Assembly: GCF_000153725.1 (NCBI RefSeq)
Contig: NZ_DS022276.1
Span: 2,943,984 to 3,007,983 of the forward strand
Length of the DNA: 64,000 nt
Direction of reading: 5' to 3'
Origin: Salipiger bermudensis HTCC2601
Lineage (GTDB): Bacteria > Pseudomonadota > Alphaproteobacteria > Rhodobacterales > Rhodobacteraceae
Part shown: positions 17,126 to 34,983 of the stretch, piece by piece
How positions within the stretch are numbered: position 1 is the stretch's first letter
Layout of the letters: every line of letters begins with the position of its first letter
Notes under the pieces: generated by a model
What the model was told of the DNA's origin: nothing
Databases searched by the model: none
Seen by the model: only the letters and a program-made list of their open reading frames with translations
Program-made: the position numbers and the translations under genes

Positions 17126-17578
17126 TCACTCCCCGCCGAGCTTCTTGAGCAGGCGGAGCAGCGTCTCCTTCTCGCGCTCGCGCAGGGGGGACAGCGTCTC
17201 GGCACTCACCGCGATGGCGGCATCCACCGCCGCGTCGATCAGCGCCACGCCGTCGGCGGTGAGCGAGACGAGATGGCGGCGGCGGTCCACCGGGTCGGCT
17301 TCGGTCTTCAGCAGGCCGCGCGCGATCAGCCGGTCGACCACGCCCTTGGTCGTCGCCCCGTCCATGGCCACCGAGCGGCCCAGCAGGTTCTGCGAGGTCG
17401 GACCGTCCTCGGCCAGCCGGTGCATCACCGAGAACTGCGTGGGCGTCAGTTTTCCCGGCACGCTTTCGGCGAAGATGTTCGAGTTGCGCTGGTAGGCCTT
17501 GCGGAGCAGGAACCCGATCTGTTCGTCGAGCACGTAGCCATGTTCGGCGCTGGTGCGGGCTTTCGGCGTGTCTTCCAA
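17126..17578 (-). CDS. MarR-family transcriptional regulator
   Basis: Winged-helix repressor of 150 residues. The recognition region TPTQFSVMHRLAEDGPTSQNLL and wing KTEADPVDRRRHLVSLT are typical of MarR proteins that respond to small phenolic or aromatic ligands. Start is TTG at 17578, with AGGAGGT eight bases upstream on the minus strand. It lies just downstream of the livFGHMK genes on the same strand with a 90-base gap holding its own palindrome, so it is probably the local regulator of the catabolic island. The ligand is unknown. Confidence 0.9.
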   Translation of the reverse strand: MEDTPKARTSAEHGYVLDEQIGFLLRKAYQRNSNIFAESVPGKLTPTQFSVMHRLAEDGPTSQNLLGRSVAMDGATTKGVVDRLIARGLLKTEADPVDRRRHLVSLTADGVALIDAAVDAAIAVSAETLSPLREREKETLLRLLKKLGGE

Positions 17579-17636
17579 GAAATCGGACCTCCTGTCTGGC
17601 GCTCCATCCTTGCAAAAAGAGCGCCCCTTTGGCGAT

Positions 17637-17655
17637 TATGCTGCAGTGCAGTATA
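17637..17655. promoter_or_regulatory. candidate MarR operator
   Basis: TATGCTGCAGTGCAGTATA contains CTGC-AGT-GCAG within near-palindromic TAT flanks, upstream of the MarR gene. Position and size fit an autoregulatory MarR site; not otherwise supported. Confidence 0.35.
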
Positions 17656-17667
17656 GGCGCTTGTGGC

Positions 17668-18369
17668 TCAGACGGAAAGATAGGCGTCGCGGATCTCGGG
17701 ATGTGCCTCCAACTCCTTGAAACTGCCGTCGAACTTCTTCTCTCCGCCTTCGATGATGATGGCTCGATCAGCCACCGCGCGGGCGAAATGCAGGTTCTGC
17801 TCGGAGATCATCACCGTCAGACCCTCGGCCTTGAGCTTCAGGATCGTCGCCGCCATCTGCTCGACGATCACCGGCGCGATGCCCTCGGAGGGCTCATCGA
17901 GCAGCAGCAGGGAGGGGTTGCCCATCAGCGTACGCGCAATGGTCAGCATCTGCTGCTCGCCGCCCGACATGTGCTTGCCGCGGTTGGCGCGGCGCTCGGA
18001 GAGGTTGGGAAAGATCTCGAAGAGTTGCTCGACGGTCCAGTGCGGCGCGTCCTGGCGCCTGGGCTGGCGCCCGACCTCGAGGTTCTCGATCACCGTCAGG
18101 TCGGTGAAGATCCGCCGGTCCTCGGGGACGTAGCCGATGCCGTCCTTGGCGACCCGGAAGGCCGGTTGGCCGATGAGGTTTTCGCCCTGAAACACCACCT
18201 GTCCCTGCTTCGGGCGGACAAGCTGCATCACCGATTTCATCGTGGTGGACTTGCCGGCGCCGTTGCGGCCCAGAAGTGCCACCACTTCGCCGCGCCGCAC
18301 CTCGAAGCTCAGGTCGTTGAGAATGTGTGCCTTGCCGTAATAGCTGTGGATGCGCTCGACGCTAAGCAT
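17668..18369 (-). CDS. livF: branched-chain-type ABC transporter ATPase LivF
   Basis: ATP-binding subunit of a high-affinity importer of the branched-chain amino acid family. 233 residues from ATG 18369 (MLSVERIHSYYG). Walker A GRNGAGKST, signature MSGGEQQM, and Walker B LLLLDEPSEGIAP. It overlaps the livG 3' end by eight bases. Members of this transporter family also import aromatic acids, amides and urea; being in an operon with ring-modifying enzymes suggests the substrate is the compound degraded by the island. Confidence 0.93.
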   Translation of the reverse strand: MLSVERIHSYYGKAHILNDLSFEVRRGEVVALLGRNGAGKSTTMKSVMQLVRPKQGQVVFQGENLIGQPAFRVAKDGIGYVPEDRRIFTDLTVIENLEVGRQPRRQDAPHWTVEQLFEIFPNLSERRANRGKHMSGGEQQMLTIARTLMGNPSLLLLDEPSEGIAPVIVEQMAATILKLKAEGLTVMISEQNLHFARAVADRAIIIEGGEKKFDGSFKELEAHPEIRDAYLSV

Positions 18370-19132
18370 GGGACTCCTCCTTGAAGAGCGTCCCGCCGCC
18401 CAGATAGACCTCCTGGACCTGCGGGTTGTTGCGCACGGCGGTGGCGTCGCCATCGGCGATCAGCTCGCCGCGGTTCAGCACCATGATGTGATGGGAATGG
18501 GCGAAGACCACGTCCATGTCGTGCTCGGTAAACAGCACCGAGACGCCCTGGTCGCGGACGATGTCGGCGACGAGCTGCATCAGCTCGACGCGGGCGCTCG
18601 GGGCCATGCCGGCGGTAGGCTCGTCCATCAGCAGCAGGCGCGGCCGGTGGCAGAGCGCGATGGCCAGCTCGAGCCGCTTGAGATCGCCATAGGCGAGGAT
18701 CGAGCAGGGTCGGTCGGCCTGATCCTGCATCGACACGGTCTCGAGGAACTCGAACGCCTCCTCGCGGTAGAGCTTCCACGCCCGGGACCCGAACGAGAAG
18801 ATCTTGCGGTGATGGCTCATCAGCGCCATCTGCACGTTCTCGATCACCGTCATCGACTGGTAGGTGCCGGTGATCTGGAAGGTCCGTCCCACGCCCCGGC
18901 GCCAGATGTCGCGGGGCTTGTGGCCGGTGATCCGCTCGCCCTCGAAGAAGACCTCGCCTTCGGTGGGTTTGAGCTGCCCCATCAGCATGTTGAAGCAGGT
19001 CGACTTGCCGGCGCCGTTGGGGCCGATCAGCGCCTTCAGCTCGCCCTTGGCGACGCTAAAGGACACGCCGTTGACCGCGAGAAAGCCGTCATAGCTCTTC
19101 TTGAGGGTCTCGACTCTAAGGATCTCGGACAT
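18362..19132 (-). CDS. livG: branched-chain-type ABC transporter ATPase LivG
   Basis: Second ATP-binding subunit of the importer, 256 residues. Walker A GPNGAGKST, signature-region LAYGDLKRLELAIAL, Walker B LLLMDEPTAGMAP, and the LivG-typical C-terminal segment (FAHSHHIMVLNRGELIADGD). Its ATG shares a base with the permease stop at 19132, so translation is coupled. It partners with LivF as a heterodimer under the fused permease. Confidence 0.94.
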   Translation of the reverse strand: MSEILRVETLKKSYDGFLAVNGVSFSVAKGELKALIGPNGAGKSTCFNMLMGQLKPTEGEVFFEGERITGHKPRDIWRRGVGRTFQITGTYQSMTVIENVQMALMSHHRKIFSFGSRAWKLYREEAFEFLETVSMQDQADRPCSILAYGDLKRLELAIALCHRPRLLLMDEPTAGMAPSARVELMQLVADIVRDQGVSVLFTEHDMDVVFAHSHHIMVLNRGELIADGDATAVRNNPQVQEVYLGGGTLFKEESHA

Positions 19133-20988
19133 CAGACCGTCTCCTCATCGGTGTTGCGGATGCGGCGCCAGAGCGTGCGCAGGGTGCCGACGATGCCCTC
19201 GGGCATCACGATCACCACGGCGATGATCACCAGACCCAACAGCAGGCGCCAGTATTCGAGGCGGGTCAGCCAGTCCTCGACCACGGTCATGAAGCCTGCG
19301 CCGACGACCCCGCCGGCCAGCGTCTTCACACCGCCGAGGAAGACCACGATCAGCGCGTCGAAGCTCTTGGCGATCTCCAACTCGGTGGGAAAGACCGAGC
19401 CCTTGGCGAAGACGAAGATGCCGCCCGCCAGACCGGCCATGGCGCCGGCGAGGGCGAAGGCCACGAACTGCACGCGCTTGACGTCGATGCCGGTGGCCTC
19501 GGCCTGGCGCGGGCTGTCGCGCCCGGCGCGCAGGGCATAGCCGAAGGGCGAATGGATGACGTGGCGCAGGAACAGGATGCCGCCGACGCCGAGGATCAGG
19601 GCGAAATAGTAGTAGGTCTCGGTGCCCGAGAGCCACTCGGAGGGCCAGATGTTGACCAGCCCGTCATCGCCGCGCGTCACCGCGCGCCACTGGAAGGCAA
19701 GGCTCCAGACCAGCTGGCTGAAGGCCAGCGTCAGCATGGCGAAATAGACCCCGGTGAGGCGGATGCAGAACCAGCCGATGCCAAGCGCCAGCAGGCCTGC
19801 GGCCAGCGGCGCGAAGAGGAAGGCCAGCTCCATCGGCGTGTCGGTGTGGAACACCAAGAGCGCCGCGGCATAGGCGCCGCCGCCGAAGAAGGCGGCATGG
19901 CCGAAGCTCACCAGTCCGCCGGAGCCGAGGATGAAATGCAGCGAGGCGGCAAAGAGCGCGAAGATCACCATGTCGATGGTCAGGATCAGCATGAACTGGT
20001 CGACAAAGAGCGGCAGCAGCGCGAGGCCAAGCAGCAGCGCCGCGATCAGCGCCTGACCCATCGGGCCATAGGGGCGGATCGGGGTTTCCGGCGCGCCGAC
20101 CTGCCCGTGCTCGCCGGCGACTTCCTCCCGGCCCAGAAGGCCGTAGGGGCGGATGATCAGCACCACGGCCATGACGACGAACATCAAGACCAGCGTCGAT
20201 TGCGGCAGGTAGGTGACGCCGAAGACGTTCAGGACCGAGATCAGCACCGAGGCGATGAAGGCGCCGGGCAGGGAGCCCATGCCGCCGATCACCACCACCA
20301 CGAAGACCGCGCCGATGATGTTGAAATCCATCAGCAGATCGGCGCCGCCCTTGGGCAGCTGCAGCGCGCCGCCCCAGCCGGCGAGCGCCGAGCCGAGGGC
20401 GAAGACGCCGGTGAAGAGCCAGGCCTGGTTGACGCCGAGCGCGCCGACCATCTCGCGGTCCTGCGTGGCGGCGCGCACCAGCACGCCGAGCCGGGTCTTG
20501 GTGATGAGATACCAGAGCGCGAAGAGGATGAAGGGGGTGATGGCGATCAGGATGATGTCGTACTTGGGCACCGGCTCGCCGAAGATGCGCCAGACGCCGC
20601 GCAGGCCCGGGGCGCGCGGCCCGAGCCGGTCCTCGGCGCCCCAGATCATCAGCGCGAGATCCTGGATCACGAGGATCACGCCGAAGGTGGCGACAAGCTG
20701 GAACAGCTCGGGCGCGCGGTAGATCGGGCGCAGCACCACCATCTCGACAAAGGCGCCGATCAGTCCGACCGCGATGCCGGTGAGCAGGATGGCGCCCCAG
20801 AAGCCCACCGCGCCGGGCAGGATCTCCATCAGGTAGATGCCGATGAAGGCGCCGAGCATGTAGAACGAGCCATGCGCGAAGTTGACGATCCGGGTGACGC
20901 CGAAGATCAGCGACAGCCCGGAGGCGACGAGGAACAGAGCCGCCGCATTGGCGAGCCCCGTCAGGAACTGGGCGAATAAGAAGGCCAT
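19132..20988 (-). CDS. livHM: fused LivH-LivM permease of the ABC importer
   Basis: Both membrane permeases of the importer in one polypeptide of 618 residues. Residues 1 to about 290 are LivH-like (NAAALFLVASGLSLIFGVTR, FAHGSFYMLGAF); after a linker near residues 295-305 (GEHGQVGAPETPIRP) the LivM-like half begins, with VSFGHAAFFGGGAYAAALL and the EAA-like ATGIDVKRVQFVAFALAGA. Usually these are two genes. The frame is open throughout with no sign of a sequencing join. ATG 20988 starts MAFLFAQFLTG. It lies between livK and livG on the minus strand, separated from livK by a 206-base spacer containing a dispersed repeat. Confidence 0.92.
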   Translation of the reverse strand: MAFLFAQFLTGLANAAALFLVASGLSLIFGVTRIVNFAHGSFYMLGAFIGIYLMEILPGAVGFWGAILLTGIAVGLIGAFVEMVVLRPIYRAPELFQLVATFGVILVIQDLALMIWGAEDRLGPRAPGLRGVWRIFGEPVPKYDIILIAITPFILFALWYLITKTRLGVLVRAATQDREMVGALGVNQAWLFTGVFALGSALAGWGGALQLPKGGADLLMDFNIIGAVFVVVVIGGMGSLPGAFIASVLISVLNVFGVTYLPQSTLVLMFVVMAVVLIIRPYGLLGREEVAGEHGQVGAPETPIRPYGPMGQALIAALLLGLALLPLFVDQFMLILTIDMVIFALFAASLHFILGSGGLVSFGHAAFFGGGAYAAALLVFHTDTPMELAFLFAPLAAGLLALGIGWFCIRLTGVYFAMLTLAFSQLVWSLAFQWRAVTRGDDGLVNIWPSEWLSGTETYYYFALILGVGGILFLRHVIHSPFGYALRAGRDSPRQAEATGIDVKRVQFVAFALAGAMAGLAGGIFVFAKGSVFPTELEIAKSFDALIVVFLGGVKTLAGGVVGAGFMTVVEDWLTRLEYWRLLLGLVIIAVVIVMPEGIVGTLRTLWRRIRNTDEETV

Positions 20989-21089
20989 GGTCCGGGTGGT
21001 GCTTTCCTGTCAGGCGTTCGGGCGCAGTGGGTCGCGGGCGCAGGACGGCTGCGCACTGCCCCGTGGTCGGGTGCGGATGAGGCAGGGGG

Positions 21090-21158: not shown

Positions 21159-21194
21159 CAGGGGGCGCGGCACGGGCGGCGCCCCCCCGCTCGG

Positions 21195-22403
21195 TCACTC
21201 GGCCGGACGCATGGCGGTGATGTCCTCGTCGGAGGGCATGTAGGGGGCCGGGTCCTTGTATTCCCAGTCCACCATCACGCCCTTGCCATCTTCGAGCGCG
21301 GTGGTGCCGACCCAGGCGCCGAGCGTCGACTGGTTGTCGATCTCGCGGTAGGTCAGCTCGCCGATGGGGGTGTTCTCGACCGTGAGGCCCTCGAAGGCCG
21401 CGACCAGCGACTCGGTGTCGGTGGCACCGGCGGCCTCGATGCCGGCGGCGATCGACTGGGCGGTCATGTAGCCCACGAGGCTGCCGATCTTCGGGGTCTC
21501 GCCTGTGGCCTCGGTATAGGCGTCGACGAAGGTCTTGCCGGGGGTGCCGTCCTCGAAGCCATACCAGGGGAAGCCGGTGACGAACCAGCCCTCGGGGGCC
21601 TCGTCGCCGAGCGGCTCGAGATATTCCGGCTCGCCGGTGAGAAGGCCGTAGACATTGCGGCCGTCGAACAGGCCGCGGTCGCCGCCGTCGCGCACGAACT
21701 TGGCGAGGTCGGTGCCGAAGGTGACGTTGTAGATCGCGTCGGGCTTGGCGCGCTCGATGGCCTGCACCTCGGCGCCGGCATCGATCTTGAACAGCGCCGG
21801 CCACTGCTCGGCGACGAACTCGACCTCGGGCTTCAGGCGCTTGAGGTTGGCCTTGAAGGCCTCGACCGCGTCCTGCCCGTAGGCATAGTTCGGGGCGATC
21901 GTGGCATACTTGATTGCGTCGGTCTTTGCGGCCTCCTCGGCCAGCATCGCGGCCTGAACCCAGGTCGAGGCGCGCAGGCGGAAGGTGTAGGGGTTGCCCG
22001 ACTTCCACACCAGGCTGTCAGCCAGCGGCTCGGAGGCGAGGTAGAGATAGCCCTTCTCGGCGGCGAAGCTCGACAGCGCGAGACCCACGTGGCTGAGGAT
22101 GGTGCCGGTCAGCATCACCGCGCCGTCGCGGGTCATCAGCTCTTCGGCGATCTTCACCGCCTCGGCCGGGTCGCCCTGGTCGTCGCGGAAGATGAACTCG
22201 AGCTCCTGGCCCAGCACGCCGCCGGCCTCGTTGATCTCGGACAGCGCCAGCTCGATGCCCAGCTTGTAGGGCTCGGCGAAGGCGGCCATGCGCTTGTAGT
22301 GGTTGATCTCGCCGACCTTGATGGTCTCCTGCGCGAAGCCCGCGGCGGGCACCAGCGCCATGGCGGCGGCCGTGGCAAGCACGGTGCGTCTCAGAAAGTT
22401 CAT
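21195..22403 (-). CDS. livK: periplasmic substrate-binding protein (LivK-like)
   Basis: Solute receptor of the importer, 402 residues. Cleavable Sec signal MNFLRRTVLATAAAMALVPA with an expected cut after GFA-QE, followed by a type I periplasmic binding fold (TIKVGEINHYKRMAAFAEPYK...). ATG 22403 has AGGAGAG upstream; longer frames upstream run into spacer. Its ligand cannot be read from sequence. The neighbouring oxygenase, Mo hydroxylase and hydantoinase genes suggest a ring compound and not a branched-chain amino acid. Confidence 0.92.
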   Translation of the reverse strand: MNFLRRTVLATAAAMALVPAAGFAQETIKVGEINHYKRMAAFAEPYKLGIELALSEINEAGGVLGQELEFIFRDDQGDPAEAVKIAEELMTRDGAVMLTGTILSHVGLALSSFAAEKGYLYLASEPLADSLVWKSGNPYTFRLRASTWVQAAMLAEEAAKTDAIKYATIAPNYAYGQDAVEAFKANLKRLKPEVEFVAEQWPALFKIDAGAEVQAIERAKPDAIYNVTFGTDLAKFVRDGGDRGLFDGRNVYGLLTGEPEYLEPLGDEAPEGWFVTGFPWYGFEDGTPGKTFVDAYTEATGETPKIGSLVGYMTAQSIAAGIEAAGATDTESLVAAFEGLTVENTPIGELTYREIDNQSTLGAWVGTTALEDGKGVMVDWEYKDPAPYMPSDEDITAMRPAE

Positions 22404-22428
22404 GGGGATATACTCTCCTGTTGGTGGC

Positions 22429-22445: not shown

Positions 22446-22470
22446 TTTTGGTATCCCGGTCTTACGCCGG

Positions 22471-23541
22471 TTAATCGTGGTAGACAAACGCCGGCGAGGG
22501 ATCGGCGGCGAGGTCCTCGGTGCGTTCCAGTTCCAGAAGTTCGTTGATGCGCTTGCGATAGACAAGGGGGCCCTTGTCGATGGCGATGCGGATCGGGCGG
22601 CGCGTCTGCGGGCGCATCTCCTCCTCCTGCACCGCCTCGAGGATCTCCTTGTCCTCGTCAAAGGCCTTGCGGAACATGGTGTCCATGCGCTCGGCCGCCT
22701 CCGCGTCGTCGGTGGCGGTGTTGCGCAGATGCATCCAGCGGTCGATGGTGTAGGTCTCGGTGACCGGCGTCATGAAATGCAGCGCGAAGATGCGCACGCC
22801 CTCGCCGCGATCCTCCTCGGCGCATTTCTTCTCGGTCTCGATGGAGCCGAAATCGATCACCGCCGTGCAAGGCGTGTAGAGGTAGTAGTAATGCCAGCGG
22901 TCGACATTGCCGGAAAAGCCGCCGAAGGCCTTGAAGAAGCCGATCGGTTCGGCGTCGCGAATCCAGCGCCACGCGACAATCGCCTCGCCCTCGGTCTGCA
23001 CATGCACCGGCACGTTCTCGGACGCCGCGTTGCCCAGCGTGGTGGGGTGCACGAAGCTCACATGCGCCGGGTCGACGAGGTTCTCGGCCACGTTGAGGTA
23101 GTTCGACTTGAGATGCAGCGCGTCGCCGTGATGCGCGGCCCAGGCCGGGTCGGAGAACTCGGGCATGTCGAAGACCTGCGCTTCGTCGGCTTTTTCGGGG
23201 TCGCCCATCCAGATCCAGACGATGCCGTGCTTCTCGACGATCGGGTAGGAGATCACGTAGGCGGATTTCGGAAGGTTGGTCTGGCCGGGCACCCGGACGC
23301 AGGCGCCGGAGCAGTCGAAGGTCAGCCCATGATAGCCGCATTGCACGGTGTCGCCGATGCGCTTGCCCTTGGAGAGCGGCAGTAGGCGGTGCGGGCAGCG
23401 ATCCTCGAGCGCCGCGACCGCGCCATCGGACTTGCGAAACATCACGACATTGTCGCCGAGGATGGTGAAGCGGCGCAGCTCGTCGTCGATTTCCGTCGAC
23501 CAGCCAGCGACATACCAGGCGTTCTTCACGAAATTCGTCAT
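22471..23541 (-). CDS. Rieske non-heme iron oxygenase, catalytic subunit
   Basis: Aromatic-ring-hydroxylating or O/N-demethylating oxygenase alpha subunit of 356 residues, similar in layout to vanillate demethylase oxygenase. The Rieske [2Fe-2S] ligands are in CPHRLLPLSKGK and QCGYHGLTF (residues about 45-70). The mononuclear iron ligands are in ENLVDPAHVSFVH (two His four residues apart). ATG 23541 (MTNFVKNAWYVAGW) follows an AAGGGAGCAAGAC ribosome site. No ferredoxin reductase gene is adjacent, so electrons must come from elsewhere. It is the gene between the AA_synth pair and the importer in the minus-strand operon. Confidence 0.9.
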   Translation of the reverse strand: MTNFVKNAWYVAGWSTEIDDELRRFTILGDNVVMFRKSDGAVAALEDRCPHRLLPLSKGKRIGDTVQCGYHGLTFDCSGACVRVPGQTNLPKSAYVISYPIVEKHGIVWIWMGDPEKADEAQVFDMPEFSDPAWAAHHGDALHLKSNYLNVAENLVDPAHVSFVHPTTLGNAASENVPVHVQTEGEAIVAWRWIRDAEPIGFFKAFGGFSGNVDRWHYYYLYTPCTAVIDFGSIETEKKCAEEDRGEGVRIFALHFMTPVTETYTIDRWMHLRNTATDDAEAAERMDTMFRKAFDEDKEILEAVQEEEMRPQTRRPIRIAIDKGPLVYRKRINELLELERTEDLAADPSPAFVYHD

Positions 23542-23593
23542 CGTCTTGCTCCCTTGCAATCTCGCTCGGTTCGTCAGCGAAGTCCTGTTCCGT

Positions 23594-24172
23594 TCAGCGC
23601 AATCCGTCGGCGCCCTCGATCTCGTCCTGTCTCAGGCCGCCCACCCGGGGCAGCGGTCGTCCGGATTGTTGCAGCACCACCGCGACAACGATCTCGCGCG
23701 GGCGGGGCGCGTCGGGCAGGCGCAGGCGCATGGCGTCGAAATGGCTGCGCACGTAAGCGGCATCCTTGTGGCCAAGCGGCACGTCGAGGATCTCGCCGGC
23801 GCGGCCGATGGCCTTTGACGAGGGCACCAGCGCCTTGCCGCCGCCGATCACCGCGCGCAGCGGCGCGCCGAGCTTGGGGTGCAGCAGCGCCGCGGCGTGC
23901 TCCAGCTCGCCAAGCTCGCCCACCAGCGCGGCCTTGCCGTAGCCCTCGATGTCGTCCGGGGCGCAGCCGAGCGCGGCCAGCGCCTCGTTGCCCAAGCGCG
24001 TGCCGAGCTCTGCGCCGGTCTCGATCAGCTCCGAGAGGTCCTTGACATAGGTGCCGGCGAAAGGGTTCTCGATCACCGCGGCGGCGAGTGCCCGGCGGGC
24101 GGGCGGCGTCACCGCCTGGCCCATCTCGGAGCGGGTCTCCTCGACCAGCGTGATGATCTTGCGCAGCTTCAA
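23594..24172 (-). CDS. AA_synth (DUF1185) family protein, copy 2
   Basis: 192 residues from a TTG start at 24172 that overlaps the stop of copy 1 (TTGA), so the two are translationally coupled. The family (Pfam AA_synth) is named amino acid synthesis family but has no firmly known activity. It shares with copy 1 the segments VIENPFAGTYVKDLSEL, IEGYGKAALVGELGELEHA, KALVPSSKAIGRAGEILDVPLGHKDA, YVRSHFDAM, LPDAPRPREIVVAVV and a DGLR C-terminus. Clear paralogues side by side suggest a heteromeric enzyme. Given the neighbours, a ring-cleaving or ring-product hydrolase is possible but unproven. Confidence 0.85.
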   Translation of the reverse strand: MKLRKIITLVEETRSEMGQAVTPPARRALAAAVIENPFAGTYVKDLSELIETGAELGTRLGNEALAALGCAPDDIEGYGKAALVGELGELEHAAALLHPKLGAPLRAVIGGGKALVPSSKAIGRAGEILDVPLGHKDAAYVRSHFDAMRLRLPDAPRPREIVVAVVLQQSGRPLPRVGGLRQDEIEGADGLR

Positions 24173-24753
24173 CGTAGACCGTCCTCGCCCTTGACCTGAT
24201 CCTTGGTGAGACCGCCGATGCGGGCATGGATGCGGCCCGCGGTGGTCATCACCAGAACCAGCGCGATCTCGTTGGGGCGCGGCGCGTCGGGCACGCCGAC
24301 CTCGACCGCATCGTAATGGGTGCGCACGTAGGAGGCATTGGTGTGGGTCACCGGCACGTCGAGGCGGGTGCCGGCGGCACCGACCTTCTTGGTCGAGGGC
24401 ACGATGGCCATGCTCTCCGCGATGGCGTCGCGCATGGCGTAGCCGCCGGGCACGTGCCAGAGCGCGCCATGCTCGATCTCGCCATTGACGCCGACGATGG
24501 CCCCCTTGCCGTAGCCTTCCACCACGGAGGCATCGCCGCCGAGCGCGTCGATGCACATCTTGGCCATCTCGGCGCCGAGCGGTTCGAGATCTTTCATGAA
24601 GGGCAGGATGTCCTCGACATAGGCGCCGGCATAGGGATTCTCGATCACCGCTATGGCGGCGGCGCGCTTCTGCGGCGCCTCGGGGGCAGGGCCGCCCTCG
24701 TGGAAGATGGTTTCGACCTGGACCAGCGTCTTGCGGACCTTCACCTCAGGCAT
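24169..24753 (-). CDS. AA_synth (DUF1185) family protein, copy 1
   Basis: 194 residues, starting MPEVKVRKTLVQVETIFHE. It carries the same motif series as copy 2: AVIENPYAGAYVEDILPFM, VEGYGKGAIVGVNGEIEHG, MAIVPSTKKVGAAGTRLDVP, YVRTHYDAVEVGVPDAPRP and a DGLR terminus. The start overlaps the end of the UPF0280 gene by eight bases. Like its partner, it lacks an assigned function; the Glu-His pair in EIEHG and the Ser-Thr-Lys-Lys motif are conserved between the two copies and are candidates for catalytic or binding residues. Confidence 0.86.
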   Translation of the reverse strand: MPEVKVRKTLVQVETIFHEGGPAPEAPQKRAAAIAVIENPYAGAYVEDILPFMKDLEPLGAEMAKMCIDALGGDASVVEGYGKGAIVGVNGEIEHGALWHVPGGYAMRDAIAESMAIVPSTKKVGAAGTRLDVPVTHTNASYVRTHYDAVEVGVPDAPRPNEIALVLVMTTAGRIHARIGGLTKDQVKGEDGLR

Positions 24754-27114: not shown

Positions 27115-27157
27115 GTGCGGGCTCCTTGGCTGGCCATGTGGCGTCATTGCGTCGTAA

Positions 27158-27173
27158 TTCGTTTGTATACGAA
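27158..27173. promoter_or_regulatory. candidate operator A in the divergent promoter
   Basis: TTCGTTTGTATACGAA, inverted repeat TTCGT-N6-ACGAA, 44 bases upstream of the reductase GTG and 20 bases downstream of a minus-strand TTGACA (27198-27193). It matches operator B (ATCGTTCGCACACGAA) at 12 of 16 positions. TTTGTATACGAA also resembles GntR/FCD-type sites. Confidence 0.45.
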
Positions 27174-27289
27174 CGCATGGCCCCGGCCACTCTGTCAAGC
27201 GGCATGGTGTGACGGCGCGGGGCGAGATGGACCTGTGTCGCGTTTTTCAGCATTCTGCCAGATGCGGGCGATGGGCGCGATGAAGGCGA

Positions 27290-27344
27290 TTGACAGAAAT
27301 CGGAAACCGCCCCTACGCTCGCTCTCAAATCGTTCGCACACGAA
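27290..27344 (+). promoter_or_regulatory. promoter and candidate operator B for the Mo hydroxylase-hyuAB genes
   Basis: TTGACA (27290-27295), an 18-base spacer and TACGCT (27314-27319) as a weak -10. The operator-like ATCGTTCGCACACGAA (27329-27344) follows where transcription should begin. The remaining sequence of the 293-base divergent spacer shows no gene. Confidence 0.45.
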
Positions 27345-27407
27345 TGAAGTGCGGCGGAAAAGGCGGCGCAGACCGACCAACCCAGCGACCAGCAAGGAGA
27401 AAGCCCA

Positions 27408-28256
27408 ATGCCACTGCATCGCCCCGAATCGCTCGACGCTGCGCTCGAGCTTCTGCAGGGCGGCAGGGCGGTCGTCCTTGGCGGCGGCACCGACCTTTAC
27501 CCGGCGCTGCGCGACGGCACACCGCCGCCGGAGATGGTGGACCTCACGCGAATCGACGGGCTGCGCGGCATCTCTCGCAGCGGGGATGGCTGGCGCATCG
27601 GCGGGGCAACCACGTGGACGCAGGTGGTGAAGGCCGAGCTGCCGCCGCTCTTCGACGGGCTCAAGGCCGCCGCGCGCGAGGTCGGCTCGGTGCAGATCCA
27701 GAACGCCGGGACCGTGGCCGGCAACCTCTGCAACGCCTCTCCGGCGGCCGATGGCGTGCCGGCGCTGCTGGCGCTCGATGCGCAGGTCGAACTGGCCGCG
27801 CCCTCGGGGATGCGGCGGATGCCGCTGAGCGACTTCATCACCGGCCCGCGCGCCACGAAGCTGGTGCCGGGCGAGATCCTCACCGCGCTCTTCATCCCAG
27901 AGGCCACGGGGCAGGGCGCCTTCCTCAAGCTCGGCGCGCGGCGCTACCTGGTGATCTCCATCGCCATGGTCTCTGCGGTGGTCGAGATGGAGGGCGACAC
28001 CGTCAAGAGCGCGCGCCTCGCCGTGGGTGCCTGCTCCCCGGTGGCGCGGCGGCTTCCGACACTGGAGGCGACGCTCGCCGGCAAGAGCATAGCGCAGGCC
28101 GAGCAGGCCGCGCTGGACTACGGCTACCCCGAGCTCAGCCCCATCGACGACGTGCGTGCCGGCGCTGGCTACCGTCGGGAGGCCGTTGCCACGCTGGTGG
28201 CCCGTGCGCTTTCGCAGGCCGCTCTCACCGACAAGGAGGTGCCCCATGTCGCTTGA
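27408..28256 (+). CDS. FAD subunit of a xanthine dehydrogenase-family Mo hydroxylase
   Basis: 282 residues of the CoxM/CutM/XdhB medium-subunit family, which holds the FAD that takes electrons from the iron-sulfur clusters. The two FAD-contact motifs are clear: VLGGGTDLYPALRDG near residue 25 and VGSVQIQNAGTVAGNLCNASPAAD near residues 88-112. ATG 27408 follows AAGGAGAAAG. It overlaps the next subunit by 11 bases. The partner gene contains both the iron-sulfur and molybdenum parts, so these two genes suffice for a complete hydroxylase. Confidence 0.93.
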   Translation: MPLHRPESLDAALELLQGGRAVVLGGGTDLYPALRDGTPPPEMVDLTRIDGLRGISRSGDGWRIGGATTWTQVVKAELPPLFDGLKAAAREVGSVQIQNAGTVAGNLCNASPAADGVPALLALDAQVELAAPSGMRRMPLSDFITGPRATKLVPGEILTALFIPEATGQGAFLKLGARRYLVISIAMVSAVVEMEGDTVKSARLAVGACSPVARRLPTLEATLAGKSIAQAEQAALDYGYPELSPIDDVRAGAGYRREAVATLVARALSQAALTDKEVPHVA

Positions 28257-30963
28257 TGCGCCGCAGGGCCATATCGGCTTCACCCTCAACGGGTCCGAGA
28301 TCACCGTGCCCGCCGATCCCACCGCGCGTCTCTCGGAGGTGCTGCGCGAGAGTGCCGGGGCGCGTGACGTCAAGGTCGGCTGCAATGCCGGCGATTGCGG
28401 CGCCTGCACGGTGCTGCTCGACGGCGCGCCGGTCTGCGCCTGCATGATCGCCGCCGGGCAGGCGCAAGGTTGCGAGATCGAGACGCAGGCCGGGCTGGTG
28501 GCGGGCGACCGCGACGCCGAGCGTCTGGCGCAGAGCTTCCAGCGCCATCAGGCGGCGCAGTGCGGCATCTGCACCCCGGGCATGATGGTCTCGGCCGTCG
28601 CGCTGCTGCGCTCGGGCGAGGACCTGACCGAAGAGAGCGTCTCGGACGCATTGGGTGGTGTGCTCTGCCGCTGCACGGGGTATCGCAAGATCATCGCCGC
28701 CGTGCTCGACGCCTCGACGGCGGCCCCCCTGGCGGAAGGCGGCGTCGGCGCGCCCATTGCGCGGCTTGACGGCTGGCAGAAGGTCAATGGCAGCGAGCGC
28801 TTCGGCGATGACGTGGCGCCGGCGGATGCGCTCACCGTGCAGGTGATCCGGTCGCCGTTCCACCGGGCAAGCTTCAGCTTCGGCGATCTCGAGACCTTCC
28901 GCGAGGAGAACGCCCTCGAGCTGATCCTCACCTCCGCCGATATCCCCGGCGAGAACCGTTTCGGCGTAATCCCCGGCTTCGAGGACCAGCCGGTCTTTGC
29001 CGAAGGTGAGACCCGCTTCAAGGGCGAGGCGGTGGCCGCCGTGGTCGGCACGCCCGAGGCGCTGGCGGGGATGGAGCCGTTTCCCGTCGCATGGGAAGAG
29101 CTGGCGTCGGTGCTGACCCCGGAGGGGGCCGACACCGCCGTGCTGCTGCATGGGGACCGCGCCGACAACGTCATGTGCCGCGGCTATGTCGCGCGCGGCA
29201 ATGCCGCCGAGGCGATGAGCAAGGCCGCGCATGTGGTTTCGGGCGAATTCTCCACCGGCTTCATCGAGCATGGCTATATCGAGCCCGAGGCCGCCTCGGC
29301 GCGGCGCGTGGGCGACCGCATCGAGGTGCAATGCTGCACGCAGGCGCCGTTCATGAACCGCGACGGCATCGCCGGGATCATGGGGCTGGCGCTGGAACAG
29401 GTGCGCATCCTGCCCACGGCCACGGGCGGCGGCTTCGGCTCCAAGCTCGACCTCACCGCGCAGCCCTACGTGGCGCTGGCGGCGTGGGTTCTGAACCGCC
29501 CGGTGCGCATCGCCTACACCCGCACCGAATCCATCGCGACCTCGACCAAGCGGCATCCGAGCCAGGTCCACATGGAGGTCGGCGCGGATGCGGAGGGTCG
29601 GATCAGCGCGGTGCGCTTCGACGGGGTGTTCAACACCGGCGCCTATGCCAGCTGGGGGCCGACGGTGGCCAACCGTGTGCCGATCCACGCCTCCGGCCCC
29701 TACAAGACCCCGAATTACGAGGCGAAAAGCGCCGGCATCCACACCAACACCGCCCCCGCAGGGGCCTTCCGCGGCTTCGGCGTGCCGCAATCGGCGGTGG
29801 CGCAGGAGCAGCTCTACGATCTGCTCGCCGAGAAGCTGGGCATGGACCGGCTCGACTTCCGGCGCCTCAACTGCCTCGGCAATGGCGATCCGACCGTGAC
29901 CGGGCAGGTCTTCGAGGCCGGCATGGGCATCGACGCCTGCTTCGATGCGCTCAAGCCGCATTGGGACAAGGCGCTGGCCGAGGCCGAGACGTTCAACGCT
30001 TCGAACAAGGCCAGAAAGCGCGGCGTCGGCATCGCGGCGGGCTGGTATGGCTGCGGCAACACCTCGATCTCGAACCCCTCGACGATCCGCGCCGGCATCA
30101 CGCCCGAAGGCACGCTCTGCCTGCACCAGGGCGCGGTCGATATCGGGCAGGGGGCCAACACCGTCATCACCCAGATCTTCGCCGAGGCGCTGGGCGTGCC
30201 GGTGGGCCAGATCACCATCCTCGGCCCCGACACAGACATTACGCCTGATGCCGGCAAGACGTCTGCCAGCCGCCAGACCTATATCTCGGGCAACGCCGCC
30301 CGCCTCTGCGGTGCCGCACTCCGGGCCAAGATCCTGCGTCAAGGCAATGTCTCCGAGGCAGCGACGATCACACTCGAGGATGGCGGCATCACGCTTTCGG
30401 ACGCGGGCACAAAGGTGCGTGTCTTGCTCGAGCCCTCCGAGGGCTACGCCATAGAGGCAGTCGAGAGCTACGACCCGCCCACCACGCCGCTGGATGAGAA
30501 CGGGCAGGGCGATCCCTACGCCGTCTTCGGCACCGCGGCCCAGATCTGCGAGCTCGAGGTCGACATGGCGCTGGGCACGGTCAAGCTCTTGCGCATCGTG
30601 GCGGCGCATGACGTTGGCCGCGCAATCAACCCGCTGCTGGTCGAGGGCCAGATCGAGGGCGGCGTGGCGCAGGGCATTGGCCTCGCGCTGATGGAAGAGT
30701 TCCTTCCCGGCCGCACCGAGAACCTGCACGACTATCTCATCCCCACCATCGGCGACGTGCCCCCGATCGAGAGCCTGATCATCGAGAGCGGCGATGCTCA
30801 CGGCCCCTATGGCGCCAAGGGCCTCGGCGAGCACTGCCTGATCCCCACTGCGCCTGCGGTGCTCAATGCCATCGCGCACGCCACCGGCGCCCGCGTCCAC
30901 CACCTTCCCGCCACGCCCGACACGGTGCGCGTGGCGATCCTCGCCTCAGGCAAGGGCGCGTGA
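28246..30963 (+). CDS. fused [2Fe-2S]-molybdopterin subunit of a Mo hydroxylase
   Basis: 905 residues. Residues 1 to about 165 form the small iron-sulfur subunit with CNAGDCGACTVLLDGAPVCAC (plant-type cluster) and CGICTPGMM...CRCTGYRK (second cluster). After a linker (VGAPIARLDGWQKVNGSERF) comes the molybdopterin-binding large subunit, with GGGFGSKLDL, APAGAFRGFGVPQ, a QGAVDIGQGANTV segment and the catalytic Glu in GAKGLGEHC near the C-terminus. Such enzymes hydroxylate N-heterocycles or aldehydes using water. Small and large subunits are usually separate genes. ATG 28246 has AAGGAGGTGCCCC upstream. The stop overlaps the hyuA ATG by one base. Confidence 0.93.
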   Translation: MSLDAPQGHIGFTLNGSEITVPADPTARLSEVLRESAGARDVKVGCNAGDCGACTVLLDGAPVCACMIAAGQAQGCEIETQAGLVAGDRDAERLAQSFQRHQAAQCGICTPGMMVSAVALLRSGEDLTEESVSDALGGVLCRCTGYRKIIAAVLDASTAAPLAEGGVGAPIARLDGWQKVNGSERFGDDVAPADALTVQVIRSPFHRASFSFGDLETFREENALELILTSADIPGENRFGVIPGFEDQPVFAEGETRFKGEAVAAVVGTPEALAGMEPFPVAWEELASVLTPEGADTAVLLHGDRADNVMCRGYVARGNAAEAMSKAAHVVSGEFSTGFIEHGYIEPEAASARRVGDRIEVQCCTQAPFMNRDGIAGIMGLALEQVRILPTATGGGFGSKLDLTAQPYVALAAWVLNRPVRIAYTRTESIATSTKRHPSQVHMEVGADAEGRISAVRFDGVFNTGAYASWGPTVANRVPIHASGPYKTPNYEAKSAGIHTNTAPAGAFRGFGVPQSAVAQEQLYDLLAEKLGMDRLDFRRLNCLGNGDPTVTGQVFEAGMGIDACFDALKPHWDKALAEAETFNASNKARKRGVGIAAGWYGCGNTSISNPSTIRAGITPEGTLCLHQGAVDIGQGANTVITQIFAEALGVPVGQITILGPDTDITPDAGKTSASRQTYISGNAARLCGAALRAKILRQGNVSEAATITLEDGGITLSDAGTKVRVLLEPSEGYAIEAVESYDPPTTPLDENGQGDPYAVFGTAAQICELEVDMALGTVKLLRIVAAHDVGRAINPLLVEGQIEGGVAQGIGLALMEEFLPGRTENLHDYLIPTIGDVPPIESLIIESGDAHGPYGAKGLGEHCLIPTAPAVLNAIAHATGARVHHLPATPDTVRVAILASGKGA

Positions 30964-33071
30964 TGCTCGACCAAAAGACCCCGGCAGATGCCGCAGGAAA
31001 GGCCCCCGAGATGACCGACAAGACCCTCACCGGACGCTTCGCCGGGATTGACGTGGGCGGCACCTTCACCGACCTGGTGTTCTACGACAGCAAGGCGCGG
31101 GCGGTGAAGCTCGCCAAGGTGCCCACCACGCTCGACAACCAGTCGAAGGGGGTGCTTGCGGCGCTCGATGCGGCGGCGGTGGACGCCGCGGCGCTTGATC
31201 TCATCGTGCACGGCACCACCACCACCACCAACGCGGTACTCGAGCGTCAGCTCTGCAAGACCGGGCTGGTGACGACACTGGGCTTCCGCGACGTGCTCGA
31301 GCTTGGCCGCCGGACGCGCCCGCACGCCTATGGCATGACCGGCCAGTTCCGCCCGATCATTCCGCGCGACCTGCGGCTCGAGATCCCCGAGCGCATGCTG
31401 GCGGACGGCTCGGAATACGCGGCCCTCGACGAGGACGCGCTGCGCGCCGCGCTTGCGGAGCTGCTCGACAAGGGCTGCGAGGCGCTGGTGATCCACTTCC
31501 TGCATGCCTATGCCAACCCCGCCCACGAGATCCGCGGCGGCGAGATCGCCCGCGAGATCTGGCCCAACGGCAACATCACCCTCGGCCACGCGCTGATCTC
31601 GGAAAGCCGCGAGTTCGAACGCGGCGTGACCGCGGCGGTCAATGCCTCGGTGCAGCCGCTGTTGCGCCGCTATGTCGAGCGGCTGGCCGACCGGCTGTCG
31701 GAGCGCGGCTATGAGCGTGACCTCTTGGTGATGAACGGCAATGGTGGCATGGTCTCGGCCCGAGTGGTGGCCGAGGAGGCCGCCAAGACGGTGATGTCCG
31801 GTCCGGCGTCAGGTGTCATGGCCGCCGCCTATACCGGGCGGCGCGCCGGCATCCCCGATCTTCTGACCTATGACATGGGCGGCACCTCCACGGATGTGGC
31901 GATGATCCGCGGTGCCGATCCGGCGGTCTCGCACGAGATCGAGATCGAGTATGCCATGCCGATCCACGTGCCGATGGTCGACGTGCGCACCGTGGGGGCG
32001 GGTGGCGGCTCCATCGCGCGGGTTGACGCGGCGGGGCTCTTGCAGGTGGGGCCCGACAGCGCCGGCTCGGTGCCGGGGCCGATCTGCTACGGCAAGGGCG
32101 GCCTCGAGCCCACCATCTCGGATGCCAACATGGCGCTGGGCCGGATGGATCCGGGCAAGCTCAACACCATCTCCGGCGATGTCTCGCTCGAAACCATCCG
32201 CGCCGCCTTCCAGTCACGGCTCGGCGATGCGCTGGGGCTGGACGCCACCGAGGCGGCAGCGGCGGTGCTGCGCATCGCCACGGCCAAGATGGCCGACGCG
32301 GTGCGCATGGTGTCGATTTCGCTCGGCGAGGACCCGCGCGACTTCGCGCTCTTCGCCTTTGGTGGGGCCGGACCGCTGCACGCCTGCGCCATCGCGCGCG
32401 AGCTCGGCGTGCCGCGGGTGCTGGTACCGGCGCGGCCCGGCATCACCAACGCGCTGGGCTGCGTGGTGGCCGACCTGCGCCACGATTACGTGGCCACGGT
32501 GAACCAGCCGCTGGATGCCTGTGACATGGAGGAGGTGCACGCGCTCTTCGCCCGCCAGGTCGAGGAGGGCCGCGCCGCCATCGGGCGCGAGCGGGTCGAG
32601 ATCGCCGAGGAGAAGATCTCCTTCTCGGTCGAGATGCGCTTCATCGGCCAGACCCACCTGCTGCGCGTGCCTCTGCCCTCGGCGACGCCCACGCGCGAGG
32701 CACTTCAGGCGCTGTTCGAGGAGGCCTATTTCAAGCGCTTCCAGGTCAAGCTGCCGGAAATCCGCCCGGCGCTGGTCAACGTCAACACCTCTGTCATCGG
32801 CCGCCGCCCCGAGATCGACCTCTCGGCGCTGATCGACCCCGCGGGCCGCAAGGCGACGCTGGACGAGGCCCGCACCGGCACCCGCCCGGTGTTCTTCGAC
32901 GCCTGGATCGACACCCCGATCTACTGGCGCGACCACCTGCCGGCGGAAGCCACGCTTTCGGGGCCGGCCATCGTCGAGCAGATGGACTGCACCCTGGTGC
33001 TCGAGCCCGGCGACGTGGCCACGCAGGATACCGATGGCAATCTCATCGTGACCGTGGGGCCACGCACATGA
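30963..33071 (+). CDS. hyuA: hydantoinase/oxoprolinase subunit A (HyuA-like)
   Basis: 702 residues of the N-methylhydantoinase A/5-oxoprolinase A family, an ATP-dependent amidohydrolase subunit that phosphorylates cyclic imide or lactam rings. N-terminal ASKHA motif GIDVGGTFTDLVFYD, then VHGTTTTTNAVLER, the central LTYDMGGTSTDVAMI and FGGAGPLHACAIARELGV. ATG 30963 shares one base with the preceding stop; a second ATG at 31011 (MTDKTLTGRF) gives a shorter form. It works with HyuB, separated here by a 235-base spacer carrying two inverted repeat copies. Confidence 0.93.
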   Translation: MLDQKTPADAAGKAPEMTDKTLTGRFAGIDVGGTFTDLVFYDSKARAVKLAKVPTTLDNQSKGVLAALDAAAVDAAALDLIVHGTTTTTNAVLERQLCKTGLVTTLGFRDVLELGRRTRPHAYGMTGQFRPIIPRDLRLEIPERMLADGSEYAALDEDALRAALAELLDKGCEALVIHFLHAYANPAHEIRGGEIAREIWPNGNITLGHALISESREFERGVTAAVNASVQPLLRRYVERLADRLSERGYERDLLVMNGNGGMVSARVVAEEAAKTVMSGPASGVMAAAYTGRRAGIPDLLTYDMGGTSTDVAMIRGADPAVSHEIEIEYAMPIHVPMVDVRTVGAGGGSIARVDAAGLLQVGPDSAGSVPGPICYGKGGLEPTISDANMALGRMDPGKLNTISGDVSLETIRAAFQSRLGDALGLDATEAAAAVLRIATAKMADAVRMVSISLGEDPRDFALFAFGGAGPLHACAIARELGVPRVLVPARPGITNALGCVVADLRHDYVATVNQPLDACDMEEVHALFARQVEEGRAAIGRERVEIAEEKISFSVEMRFIGQTHLLRVPLPSATPTREALQALFEEAYFKRFQVKLPEIRPALVNVNTSVIGRRPEIDLSALIDPAGRKATLDEARTGTRPVFFDAWIDTPIYWRDHLPAEATLSGPAIVEQMDCTLVLEPGDVATQDTDGNLIVTVGPRT

Positions 33072-33125
33072 CCGGCGGCATCAAGAGCTCCGGCGCCGGA
33101 GTGTGGGTTTCACACCCCGCACCCT

Positions 33126-33257
33126 GGGCTCCGCCCACGTCAGGGCGAAACCGTCCCCCGGACGCTTTCCGGGACGCCCATCCGCCCCCCGTGGAGTATT
33201 TGCAACGTAAAGAAGCCGGGAGCGGCGCCCCTGTCTTCTCTTCGTCAAAAATACTCC
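33126..33257. repeat. inverted pair of dispersed repeats between hyuA and hyuB
   Basis: A plus-strand three-part copy: hairpin GGGC-TCC-GCCC (33126-33136), CGTCCC...GGGACG (33152-33176), and core GGAGTATTT-GCA-ACGTAAAGAAG (33193-33215). A minus-strand core follows (33235-33257, reading GGAGTATTT-TTG-ACGAAGAGAAG on the other strand). The two cores can pair across a 19-base loop. The spacer 33072-33306 holds no gene I can support. Confidence 0.65.
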
Positions 33258-33306
33258 CGCCGGAGGCATCCTCCCTTCCCGCCCTTGCTGTCTTCGGAGG
33301 TCTGAC

Positions 33307-34983
33307 ATGACGCTCGATCCCATCACCCTCACGGTCATCCAGTCCGGCCTGCAGCAGGTCTGCGACGAGATGGATCTGTCCTTCTCCCGCGCCGCCTTCT
33401 CGCCTGTGATCGCCGAAGCCAACGACCGCTCGGACGGGATCTATTCCGCCGAGGATGGCAGCCTGATCGCACAAGGCTCCCAGGGCCTGCCGGTCTTCGT
33501 CGGCGTGATGCAGTATTCCACCGCGACGCTGATCAGGATGATCGAAGAGGGCAAGGTGATCGCGCCGAAGCCCGGCGACATCTACATCGTCAACGATCCC
33601 TATCTCGGCGGCACCCACCTGATGGACGTGCGTTTTGCAATGCCGGTCTGGCGCAATGGCGAGATCTTCTGCTGGCTGTCCAACACCGGTCACTGGCCCG
33701 ATACCGGCGGCGCGGTGCCCGGCGGGTTCTCGGCCTCGGCCACGGCGGTCGAGCAGGAGGGGCTGCGGTTGCCACCCGTGCGCCTGTTCAAGAACGGCGA
33801 GCTCGACCCCGAGATTTACGCCATCATCTGCTCCAACATTCGAGTCGCGGACCAGCGCATCGGCGACGTCAAGGCGCAGGCGGCGGCGCTCTACGTGGGT
33901 GAGGCGCGGCTCACCCGGCTGCTCGACCGCTACGGAGACGACACCGTGCGCGAGGCCATCCGCGAGCTGCGCAGCCGCGCCGCCGAGCAGATGCGGGCGC
34001 AGATCGCGCAGATCCCGCCCGGCACCTACCGCTCCACCGCCTATATCGACAGCGATGGCGTGGTGAACGAACCGCTCGAGATCAAGCTCGCGGTGACCGC
34101 CGATGGCGAAGGGCTGAGCTTCGATTTCGCGGGCTCCAGCCCGCCCTGCCAAGGGCCGATGAACTCGGTCATCGCCACCACGCTGAGCTCGGTCTACCTT
34201 GCCATGCGGCACATCTTTCCCGATGTGCCGATCAGCGCCGGCGCTTTCGAGCCGCTCACCGTCAAGCGCCCCGAGGGCACCTTCCTCGACGCGCAATACC
34301 CGCGCCCGGTCTCGGGCTGCGCGGCGGAGGTCAGCCAGCGCATCGCCGAGGCGGTGTTCGCGGCTCTGGTCGAGGCGCTGCCGGGCAAGGTGAGCGCGGC
34401 CCCCGCGGGCTCCTCGGGCAATTTCGCGCTGGGCGGCGAGGTGCCCGAGACCGGGCAGAGCTACGTCATGTACCAGATCTCGGGCGGCGGCTATGGCGGC
34501 TACGCGGGCGGCGACGGCATCTCCAACGGCTGCTCGACCATCGGCATCTCCAAGGCCCCCCCGGTGGAGATCATGGAGCAGCAATTCCCGGTGCTCTACC
34601 ACCGCTATGCCCTGCGCGAGGGCTCGGGCGGGGCGGGCGCGCAGCGCGGCGGGTTCGGGCTCGACTACGAGGTCGAGATCCTCAAGGGGCAGGCGCGGGC
34701 GAGCTTTGTTATGGATCATGGTCGCTTCGGCCCGCAGGGGGCGCTCGGCGGCGGCGACGGCGCGGTCAACGAGGTGGCGGTGACGCGCGGCGGCGAGACC
34801 TTCACGCCGGCGCACCTGTCGAAGGCGCAGGACATCTCGCTGGTGGCGGGCGACCGGGTGCGGGTGAAGACCCCCGGCGGTGGCGGCTATGGCGATCCGG
34901 CGACTCGTGACCGGACACTGGTCGACGAGGACGTGCGGCTCGGGCGGTACTCGGCGGAAGAGGCGAAGCGGCTCTTTGGGTGA
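33307..34983 (+). CDS. hyuB: hydantoinase/oxoprolinase subunit B (HyuB-like)
   Basis: 558 residues of the N-methylhydantoinase B/5-oxoprolinase B family, the partner that hydrolyses the activated ring. Conserved family stretches include SRAAFSPVIAEANDRSDGIY, GDIYIVNDPYLGGTHLMDV, the GGGYGGYAGGDG glycine-rich segment and the C-terminal VRVKTPGGGGYGDPATRD. GGAGGTCTGAC precedes the ATG. With HyuA it forms an ATP-dependent ring-opening enzyme; acetophenone carboxylase-type and acetone carboxylase-type reactions occur in the same superfamily, so carboxylation cannot be excluded. Confidence 0.93.
   Translation: MTLDPITLTVIQSGLQQVCDEMDLSFSRAAFSPVIAEANDRSDGIYSAEDGSLIAQGSQGLPVFVGVMQYSTATLIRMIEEGKVIAPKPGDIYIVNDPYLGGTHLMDVRFAMPVWRNGEIFCWLSNTGHWPDTGGAVPGGFSASATAVEQEGLRLPPVRLFKNGELDPEIYAIICSNIRVADQRIGDVKAQAAALYVGEARLTRLLDRYGDDTVREAIRELRSRAAEQMRAQIAQIPPGTYRSTAYIDSDGVVNEPLEIKLAVTADGEGLSFDFAGSSPPCQGPMNSVIATTLSSVYLAMRHIFPDVPISAGAFEPLTVKRPEGTFLDAQYPRPVSGCAAEVSQRIAEAVFAALVEALPGKVSAAPAGSSGNFALGGEVPETGQSYVMYQISGGGYGGYAGGDGISNGCSTIGISKAPPVEIMEQQFPVLYHRYALREGSGGAGAQRGGFGLDYEVEILKGQARASFVMDHGRFGPQGALGGGDGAVNEVAVTRGGETFTPAHLSKAQDISLVAGDRVRVKTPGGGGYGDPATRDRTLVDEDVRLGRYSAEEAKRLFG

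Follow-up and report, generated by a model that had tools for sequence, protein, structure and literature searches.

We analyzed a 64,000-nucleotide stretch of the Salipiger bermudensis HTCC2601 genome (contig NZ_DS022276.1, positions 2,943,984 to 3,007,983 of the forward strand; hereafter "the window") and found in it a gene island that, judging from its sequence, appears to be a reductive degradation cluster for nicotinate or a near pyridine carboxylate (rough probability 0.72). In this cluster the ATP-dependent lactamase pair HyuAB would take the place of enamidase, the UPF0280 protein would flavinylate Hnr, a 6-hydroxynicotinate reductase-like protein, and a MarR-family regulator would act as repressor. 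The original prediction for this DNA, a route that imports, hydroxylates, reduces and opens an N-heterocycle, is upheld by the co-inheritance of the genes and by an operator-like motif between the two operons; most likely, it is the nicotinate route with HyuAB replacing the enamidase, and hence a variant of a known pathway.

We infer the substrates, reactions and regulatory steps as follows. LivKHMGF would take up the substrate, the FAD/FeS-Mo hydroxylase would form 6-hydroxynicotinate, and Hnr would reduce it to 1,4,5,6-tetrahydro-6-oxonicotinate (THON), with electrons probably delivered from NADPH via ferredoxin. THON, a six-membered lactam, would be opened by HyuAB at the cost of ATP, a task performed elsewhere by enamidase. 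This would yield formylglutarate, or the enamine form of it, which would reach central metabolism via glutarate. UPF0280, as an ApbE-like flavin transferase, would attach a covalent flavin to Hnr, and MarR would repress both divergent operons through the intervening palindromes until released by 6-hydroxynicotinate.

Two ring openers, one of them proposed, divide the Hnr-bearing genomes

We surveyed 385 genomes drawn across the Alphaproteobacteria. Hnr is encoded by 68 of them, in 34 families, and at identity cut-offs chosen once the hits were known every one of these carries an enamidase or an orthologue of the window's HyuB, with none having both and none having neither. Enamidase of at least 65% identity was found in 29 (and in one other genome, G082), while a HyuB orthologue, at least 65% identical to the window's HyuB, was found in the remaining 39 and nowhere outside the Hnr genomes. 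Weaker hits were excluded before counting (6 of 36 genomes with enamidase-like proteins of 37-42% identity at most, and 13 of 52 with HyuB below 65%); the next-best enamidase-like proteins reach at most 42% identity and the next HyuB-like ones 63-64%, the latter in four genomes, none with Hnr.

Given this either-or split, HyuAB may be seen as an ATP-dependent replacement for enamidase, which would account for the enzyme that seemed to be missing: the enamidase of the THON pathway has no match in the window's own genome at E <= 1e-50. That absence had been taken to rule out the plain nicotinate pathway, an argument that falls away if enamidase and HyuB substitute for each other across the 68 genomes. 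Orthologues of the molybdenum hydroxylase, Hnr, UPF0280, AA_synth, Liv and MarR genes also occur in clusters of genomes with a clear enamidase (orthologue of PDB 2vun), and since both types share orthologues of the hydroxylase, LivK and MarR, the simplest reading of these sequences would be one pathway with two exchangeable ring-opening enzymes. The label "undescribed" likewise finds no support, given these orthologues and a related alphaproteobacterial nicotinate cluster in print (PMC3511419). Among the matches listed by our literature search, no paper joins hydantoinase or oxoprolinase with enamidase; a fungal nicotine transcriptome joins oxoprolinase with the term 6-hydroxynicotin- (PMC6346535).

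Gene neighbourhoods were fetched for 60 of the 67 other Hnr genomes (all except G044, G064, G087, G231, G292, G339 and G367). In an Hnr tree of 60 rows, which leaves out survey locus L132 with its split hnr, the enamidase/HyuB label switches at least seven times, five of these being forced by well-supported branches. Such switches are seen between Hnr relatives at 76-82% identity, and the closest Hnr relatives of the window in this sample bear enamidase. Within the 60 fetched stretches we found HyuA or HyuB in 21, enamidase in 15, both in none and neither in 24; one of the 21 (L124) has a distant HyuAB match (30-35%) in a genome of the enamidase type. Looking for alternative ring openers in the 24 loci retrieved recurrent unassigned genes, none common to more than three loci, and whole-genome searches yielded enamidase or HyuB in every one of these cases.

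HyuAB might instead act on an unrelated lactam or hydantoin, with the Hnr product being opened by an enzyme encoded elsewhere. HyuAB-type proteins are indeed widespread, and HyuB went unscored in many HyuB-type stretches despite a genomic orthologue, with some stretches reaching contig ends. Yet the either-or split with enamidase, the presence of HyuA in the stretches of 20 of the 33 HyuB-type survey loci and in 28 of 33 named relatives (see below), and the correlation between HyuB and Hnr distances (r 0.90 in 45 loci, where other cluster genes give 0.64-0.93 and no outside-cluster control gene is included) make this quite improbable.

Organization and conservation of the island

Pfam and NCBIfam scans of the window proteins confirmed the predicted island genes other than hnr, and the island has the following parts, in this order:

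17126..17578, minus strand: MarR-family regulator, BpsR-like, candidate 6-hydroxynicotinate sensor (Pfam MarR; PDB matches)
17668..18390, minus strand: livF, ABC ATPase (profile scans; start approximate)
18362..19132, minus strand: livG, ABC ATPase (profile scans)
19132..20988, minus strand: livHM, two permease domains in one protein (two BPD_transp_2 stretches)
21195..22403, minus strand: livK, periplasmic binding protein, candidate nicotinate binder (Peripla_BP_6; 3i45_A; start approximate)
22471..23559, minus strand: Rieske non-haem iron oxygenase, VanA/DdmC type, accessory (profile scan and PDB comparison)
23594..24172, minus strand: AA_synth protein 2, close to SPO0826 (PDB 2qtp; E 1.6e-78)
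24169..24753, minus strand: AA_synth protein 1 (E 1.9e-69; start approximate)
24746..25606, minus strand: UPF0280, ApbE-like predicted fold, candidate flavin transferase for Hnr (NCBIfam; structure model; start approximate)
25606..27147, minus strand: hnr, 6-hydroxynicotinate reductase-like iron-sulfur protein (homologues; open reading frame to 27198, likely ATG at 27147)
27158..27177, no strand: palindromic operator-like site 1, TTCGTTTGTATACGAACGCA, upstream of hnr (motif search)
27329..27348, no strand: operator-like site 2, weaker (4/20 mismatches), upstream of the FAD-subunit gene (motif search)
27408..28256, plus strand: molybdenum hydroxylase FAD subunit (Pfam/NCBIfam)
28246..30963, plus strand: molybdenum hydroxylase, fused [2Fe-2S] and Mo-cofactor subunit (Pfam/NCBIfam; start approximate)
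30960..33071, plus strand: hyuA, putative ATP-dependent lactamase alpha subunit (Pfam/NCBIfam; ATP motifs intact)
33307..34983, plus strand: hyuB, putative ATP-dependent lactamase beta subunit, candidate enamidase replacement (Pfam/NCBIfam; metal site H104, D107, H129)

The limits of the island, 17126-34983, fit the stop codons of marR and hyuB. Its two operons, which had been described as facing each other, in fact diverge from a shared intergenic region, the minus-strand set running from hnr (about 27147) to marR (17126) and the plus-strand one spanning 27408-34983. The likely starts of hnr (27147) and of the FAD-subunit gene (27408) lie some 260 bp apart. LivH and LivM are parts of a single fused protein of 618 aa, and the hydroxylase belongs by sequence to the xanthine dehydrogenase family, as the reductive (THON) nicotinate pathway calls for. 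On one side of the island lie paired aminotransferase and Zn-dehydrogenase genes (14835-17056), on the other an aconitase gene (35305-38142).

A search with Hnr found 33 named relatives of this locus, most of which preserve both the divergent layout and the gene order of the cassette (Salipiger, Primorskyibacter, Roseibium/Labrenzia, Stappia, Breoghania and others); the S. bermudensis entry among them has an Hnr 96% identical to that of the window. UPF0280 and AA_synth are present in 32 of these loci, LivK and MarR in 31, the Mo subunit in 29, HyuA and Rieske in 28 and HyuB in 26, part of the gaps being contig ends. The synteny check proposed earlier thus shows a co-inherited gene set and not a scattered one, since most named relatives keep the divergent cassette: the grouping is more than chance, a conserved cassette. 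A ferredoxin-NADP reductase gene lies within the cluster in 16 of the 33, and not in that of the window.

On plasmids, for which 26 records with hnr were found and seven viewed, the core of hnr, UPF0280 and AA_synth is paired with varying partners. The core is accompanied by NicAB-type hydroxylases and HyuAB in L067 and L068, by an FAD/FeS-Mo hydroxylase and HyuAB in L066 and L071, and by HyuAB with no hydroxylase within the stretch in L070. In L069 it stands with an FAD/FeS-Mo hydroxylase, an amidohydrolase and a distant HyuAB pair, and in L072 with a NicAB-type hydroxylase and an amidohydrolase orthologous to enamidase (2vun, E 2.4e-111).

Some loci show peculiarities of their own. Two assemblies labelled as the actinobacterium Enemella evansiae (L016) and a Cytophagaceae metagenome-assembled genome (L029) bear a rhodobacterial cluster, with Hnr 82% and 95% identical, and are probably mislabelled or contaminated. 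In L132 (genome G028) and L027 hnr is in two pieces, with UPF0280 and other cluster genes still there. L068:4737-6200 and L071:14933-16306 encode cluster proteins (457-487 aa) that match neither Pfam at E <= 1e-10 nor NCBIfam at E <= 1e-20; the L068 protein has relatives in several survey loci.

HyuAB as the candidate lactam-opening enzyme

The window pair carries the motifs of the ATP-dependent lactamases (HyuAB, OplAB, CapAB). HyuA retains the ATP motifs DVGGTFTD, DMGGT and GSVPGP, all three of which are present in 56/56 HyuA hits, and the HyuB metal-site residues H104, D107 and H129 are spaced as in the reference caprolactamase CapB (PMC8453981), with the H-x2-D...H pattern kept in 46/47 HyuB hits. 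OplAB, of the HyuAB family, opens the six-membered lactam delta-valerolactam (PMC11033972). We propose that HyuAB may open THON. The NCBIfam equivalog cut-off for caprolactamase CapAB (1000 bits) is not reached, the scores being 491 and 303 bits; assignments to caprolactam, acetophenone and xanthine were all rejected, as every score lies far under the curated cut-offs.

A candidate flavin transferase beside Hnr

The 530-aa Hnr-like protein has no Pfam or NCBIfam match at E <= 0.001 and no PDB sequence match at E <= 1; it is identified as a reductase homologue through annotation, since many of the 26 plasmid records give its homologues the name "6-hydroxynicotinate reductase". Eight cysteines are at least 98% conserved across 98 sequences, and the motif LR[SA]GVT, a candidate flavin target, appears in 99 of 101 alignment rows (LRAGTT in one more). 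The AlphaFold model is poor (mean pLDDT 57) and gave no structural match at E <= 0.001, so we make no claim on the fold of Hnr.

UPF0280 (NCBIfam NF003322, scoring 326.8 bits where the cut-off is 290) is found in all 68 Hnr genomes, after exclusion of 6/74 genomes with UPF0280 scores under 30 bits, and almost always adjoins hnr downstream. The exceptions are L021 (Rhizobium sp. L1K21), where it lies elsewhere in the genome, outside the fetched hnr stretch, and L090, where it begins 419 bp past the hnr match. Its structure model (pLDDT 92.8) has a predicted fold that matches ApbE, and it shares with ApbE the motifs NxGGD, ATSG and AD-x3-T. Because of its constant company with hnr and its ApbE-like predicted fold, we propose that UPF0280 is probably the helper that fixes the flavin onto Hnr. 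A literature search under the name UPF0280, which did not use the earlier Pfam name DUF375, found no paper.

A stronger, joint reading seems to us to have slightly better than even odds. It holds that UPF0280 would be a dedicated cytosolic, ApbE-like flavin transferase only for Hnr, acting on LR[SA]GVT as a novel target motif, and also that HyuAB would be an ATP-driven THON hydrolase that has traded places with the ATP-free enamidase five times or more, the swaps in Alphaproteobacteria representing repeated non-orthologous displacement in an otherwise constant pathway.

Uptake and accessory proteins

LivK aligns over nearly its full length with 3i45_A (E 6.4e-136), a Rhodospirillum rubrum protein whose ligand in that entry is reported to be nicotinic acid. 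AA_synth genes occur in 59 of the 68 Hnr genomes as compared to 22 of the 317 others (1/82 genomes, with a weak AA_synth, was excluded before counting). These 22 genomes (e.g. G154, G252 and G331) include other genera of the window's family, and the presence of AA_synth genes in genomes without Hnr suggests roles beyond the Hnr pathway. AA_synth protein 2 is close to SPO0826 of Ruegeria pomeroyi (PDB 2qtp), whose gene adjoins the Liv genes SPO0822-0825 and whose family fold is chorismate-mutase-like (PMC2954203).

The nearest solved relatives of the Rieske protein are 7qwt and dicamba demethylase (DdmC), with NdmA also among them. Its gene is present in 28 of the 33 named loci and 12 of the 60 survey loci, and has no counterpart in several otherwise complete copies of the cluster (e.g. 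L004, L031 and L032), which is why we regard it as accessory; it might, as a weak suggestion, allow pyridines methylated on N or O to enter the pathway. One could go further and propose that the substrate is another pyridine carboxylate or an N-methylated pyridine, for example trigonelline, demethylated by the Rieske enzyme, with HyuAB marking the change of substrate. The frequency of the Rieske gene in the named loci and its demethylase relatives fit this proposal, as does TgnF of the trigonelline pathway, an AA_synth relative (PMC7913881). Yet in the survey the Rieske gene favours the enamidase type (11/27 loci) over the HyuB type (1/33), the hydroxylase, LivK and MarR orthologues are common to both types, and the opener switches among close Hnr relatives, so we consider this proposal unlikely, though less so than the other alternatives. 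Homarine was considered as substrate in view of a 2026 paper on its breakdown, which PMC13390433 cites, but was not adopted, the six-gene hom operon being unlike the island set.

A shared operator-like palindrome

The intergenic region contains the near-perfect palindrome TTCGTTTGTATACGAACGCA at 27158 and a weaker copy at 27329. Shuffles expect 0.01 such sites in the window, a figure that is not an independent test because the motif was derived from this region and its relatives; likewise, of the 40 named and plasmid loci, part of which supplied the motif, 36 have sites with up to 4/18 mismatches. The survey loci provide an independent set, in which 26 of 60 have a site with up to 4/20 mismatches compared to 0-1 in each of five shuffled sets. 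These sites are almost always immediately upstream of cluster genes, and some lie in enamidase-type clusters.

The MarR protein is most similar in PDB to 2nnn (E 1.5e-33) and then to Bordetella BpsR (6pcp/6pco, E about 1e-24), which holds 6-hydroxynicotinate via Y15, H23, R26 and H32; the same paper describes Pseudomonas putida NicR as lacking these residues (PMC6837509). Among 74 aligned regulators, the Tyr and Arg are present in all and the histidines vary, with all four residues in seven. Such a regulator bears on a last alternative, a five-membered or pyrimidine-like substrate, such as pyrrole-2-carboxylate that is first hydroxylated, then reduced to 5-oxoproline and finally opened to glutamate by HyuAB. 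This would be chemically neat, would account for the missing downstream genes, and is in line with the relatedness of HyuAB to 5-oxoprolinases; however, the exchange with enamidase, the BpsR-like regulator and the shared transporter orthologues all indicate a pyridine, leaving it a very slim chance.

Weight of the evidence and implications

Several points weigh against the nicotinate reading. The identity cut-offs for enamidase and HyuB were fixed only after the lists had been seen, and the survey genomes are akin, so that p-values overstate. Weaker enamidase-like proteins (37-40%) are present in three HyuB genomes (G104, G289 and G064); the best HyuB-like protein is only 44-64% identical in 13 of the 52 listed genomes, one of which, G065, has Hnr and enamidase. 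HyuB was unscored in the fetched stretch of 20 of the 33 HyuB-type loci and enamidase in 12 of the 27 enamidase-type ones, so that many openers would lie outside the cluster or past the fetched ends. The operator-like site is found in only those 26 of 60 survey loci, and the window's MarR, with Y, F, R and N at the four BpsR ligand positions, keeps just Y15 and R26. UPF0280 matches neither Pfam ApbE (PF02424) nor any other Pfam family at E <= 0.001, is only weakly similar to ApbE by profile alone (hhalign probability 15%), and has a Gly where the ApbE catalytic His, which precedes I-x-D, aligns. The covalent flavin on Hnr was reportedly described by Alhapel in 2006. Finally, the nicotinate reading does not account for the Rieske oxygenase.

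If the nicotinate reading is true, a ring opener can be named for 39 of the 68 sampled alphaproteobacterial Hnr genomes, UPF0280 gains a function, the covalent attachment of flavin to 6-hydroxynicotinate reductase gains an explanation, and degradation of the vitamin B3 ring would be a widespread trait in marine Rhodobacterales. The model strain R. pomeroyi has at least the close AA_synth gene next to Liv genes (SPO0822-0826).

Other features of the window

A carboxymuconolactone decarboxylase-like gene (4088-4492) lies within a nuo (complex I) run, between the 4Fe-4S (NuoI-like) and NuoJ-like genes. Type VI secretion genes at 57139-63311 encode a ClpV-like AAA protein, ImpA, VipA and VipB, and are adjoined by a divergent protein kinase gene (54907-57030).

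Comparison with known systems

Like BpsR of Bordetella (6pco, 6pcp), the window's regulator belongs to the MarR family and has Y15 and R26; it differs in having F and N for H23 and H32. UPF0280 resembles the ApbE flavin transferases (1vrm, 4ifu, 5mgy, 6nxi) in predicted fold and motifs, but falls under Pfam ApbE detection, does not keep the catalytic His, and is apparently dedicated to one partner, Hnr. With CapAB, OplAB and the hydantoinases, HyuAB shares both subunits, the ATP motifs and the His-Asp-His metal site, whereas it scores at most half of the caprolactamase cut-offs and the pair is embedded in a pyridine-type cluster.

Nicotinate fermentation in Eubacterium barkeri reportedly (Alhapel, 2006) proceeds from a molybdenum hydroxylase through 6-hydroxynicotinate reductase to ring opening, and the window's enzymes would act in the same order. 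The window differs in lacking the enamidase (2vun), in showing no later fermentation genes within the island, and in having one fused FeS-Mo subunit where the E. barkeri enzyme has two Mo subunits (3hrd).

In Azorhizobium caulinodans and Bradyrhizobiaceae, as described in PMC3511419, the nicotinate cluster (AZC_2804-2790) contains hnr together with an ABC transporter and two uncharacterized proteins. Compared by this description, the window's genome differs in having no enamidase at E <= 1e-50, HyuAB instead, and an extra Rieske gene, while both systems belong to aerobic alphaproteobacteria.

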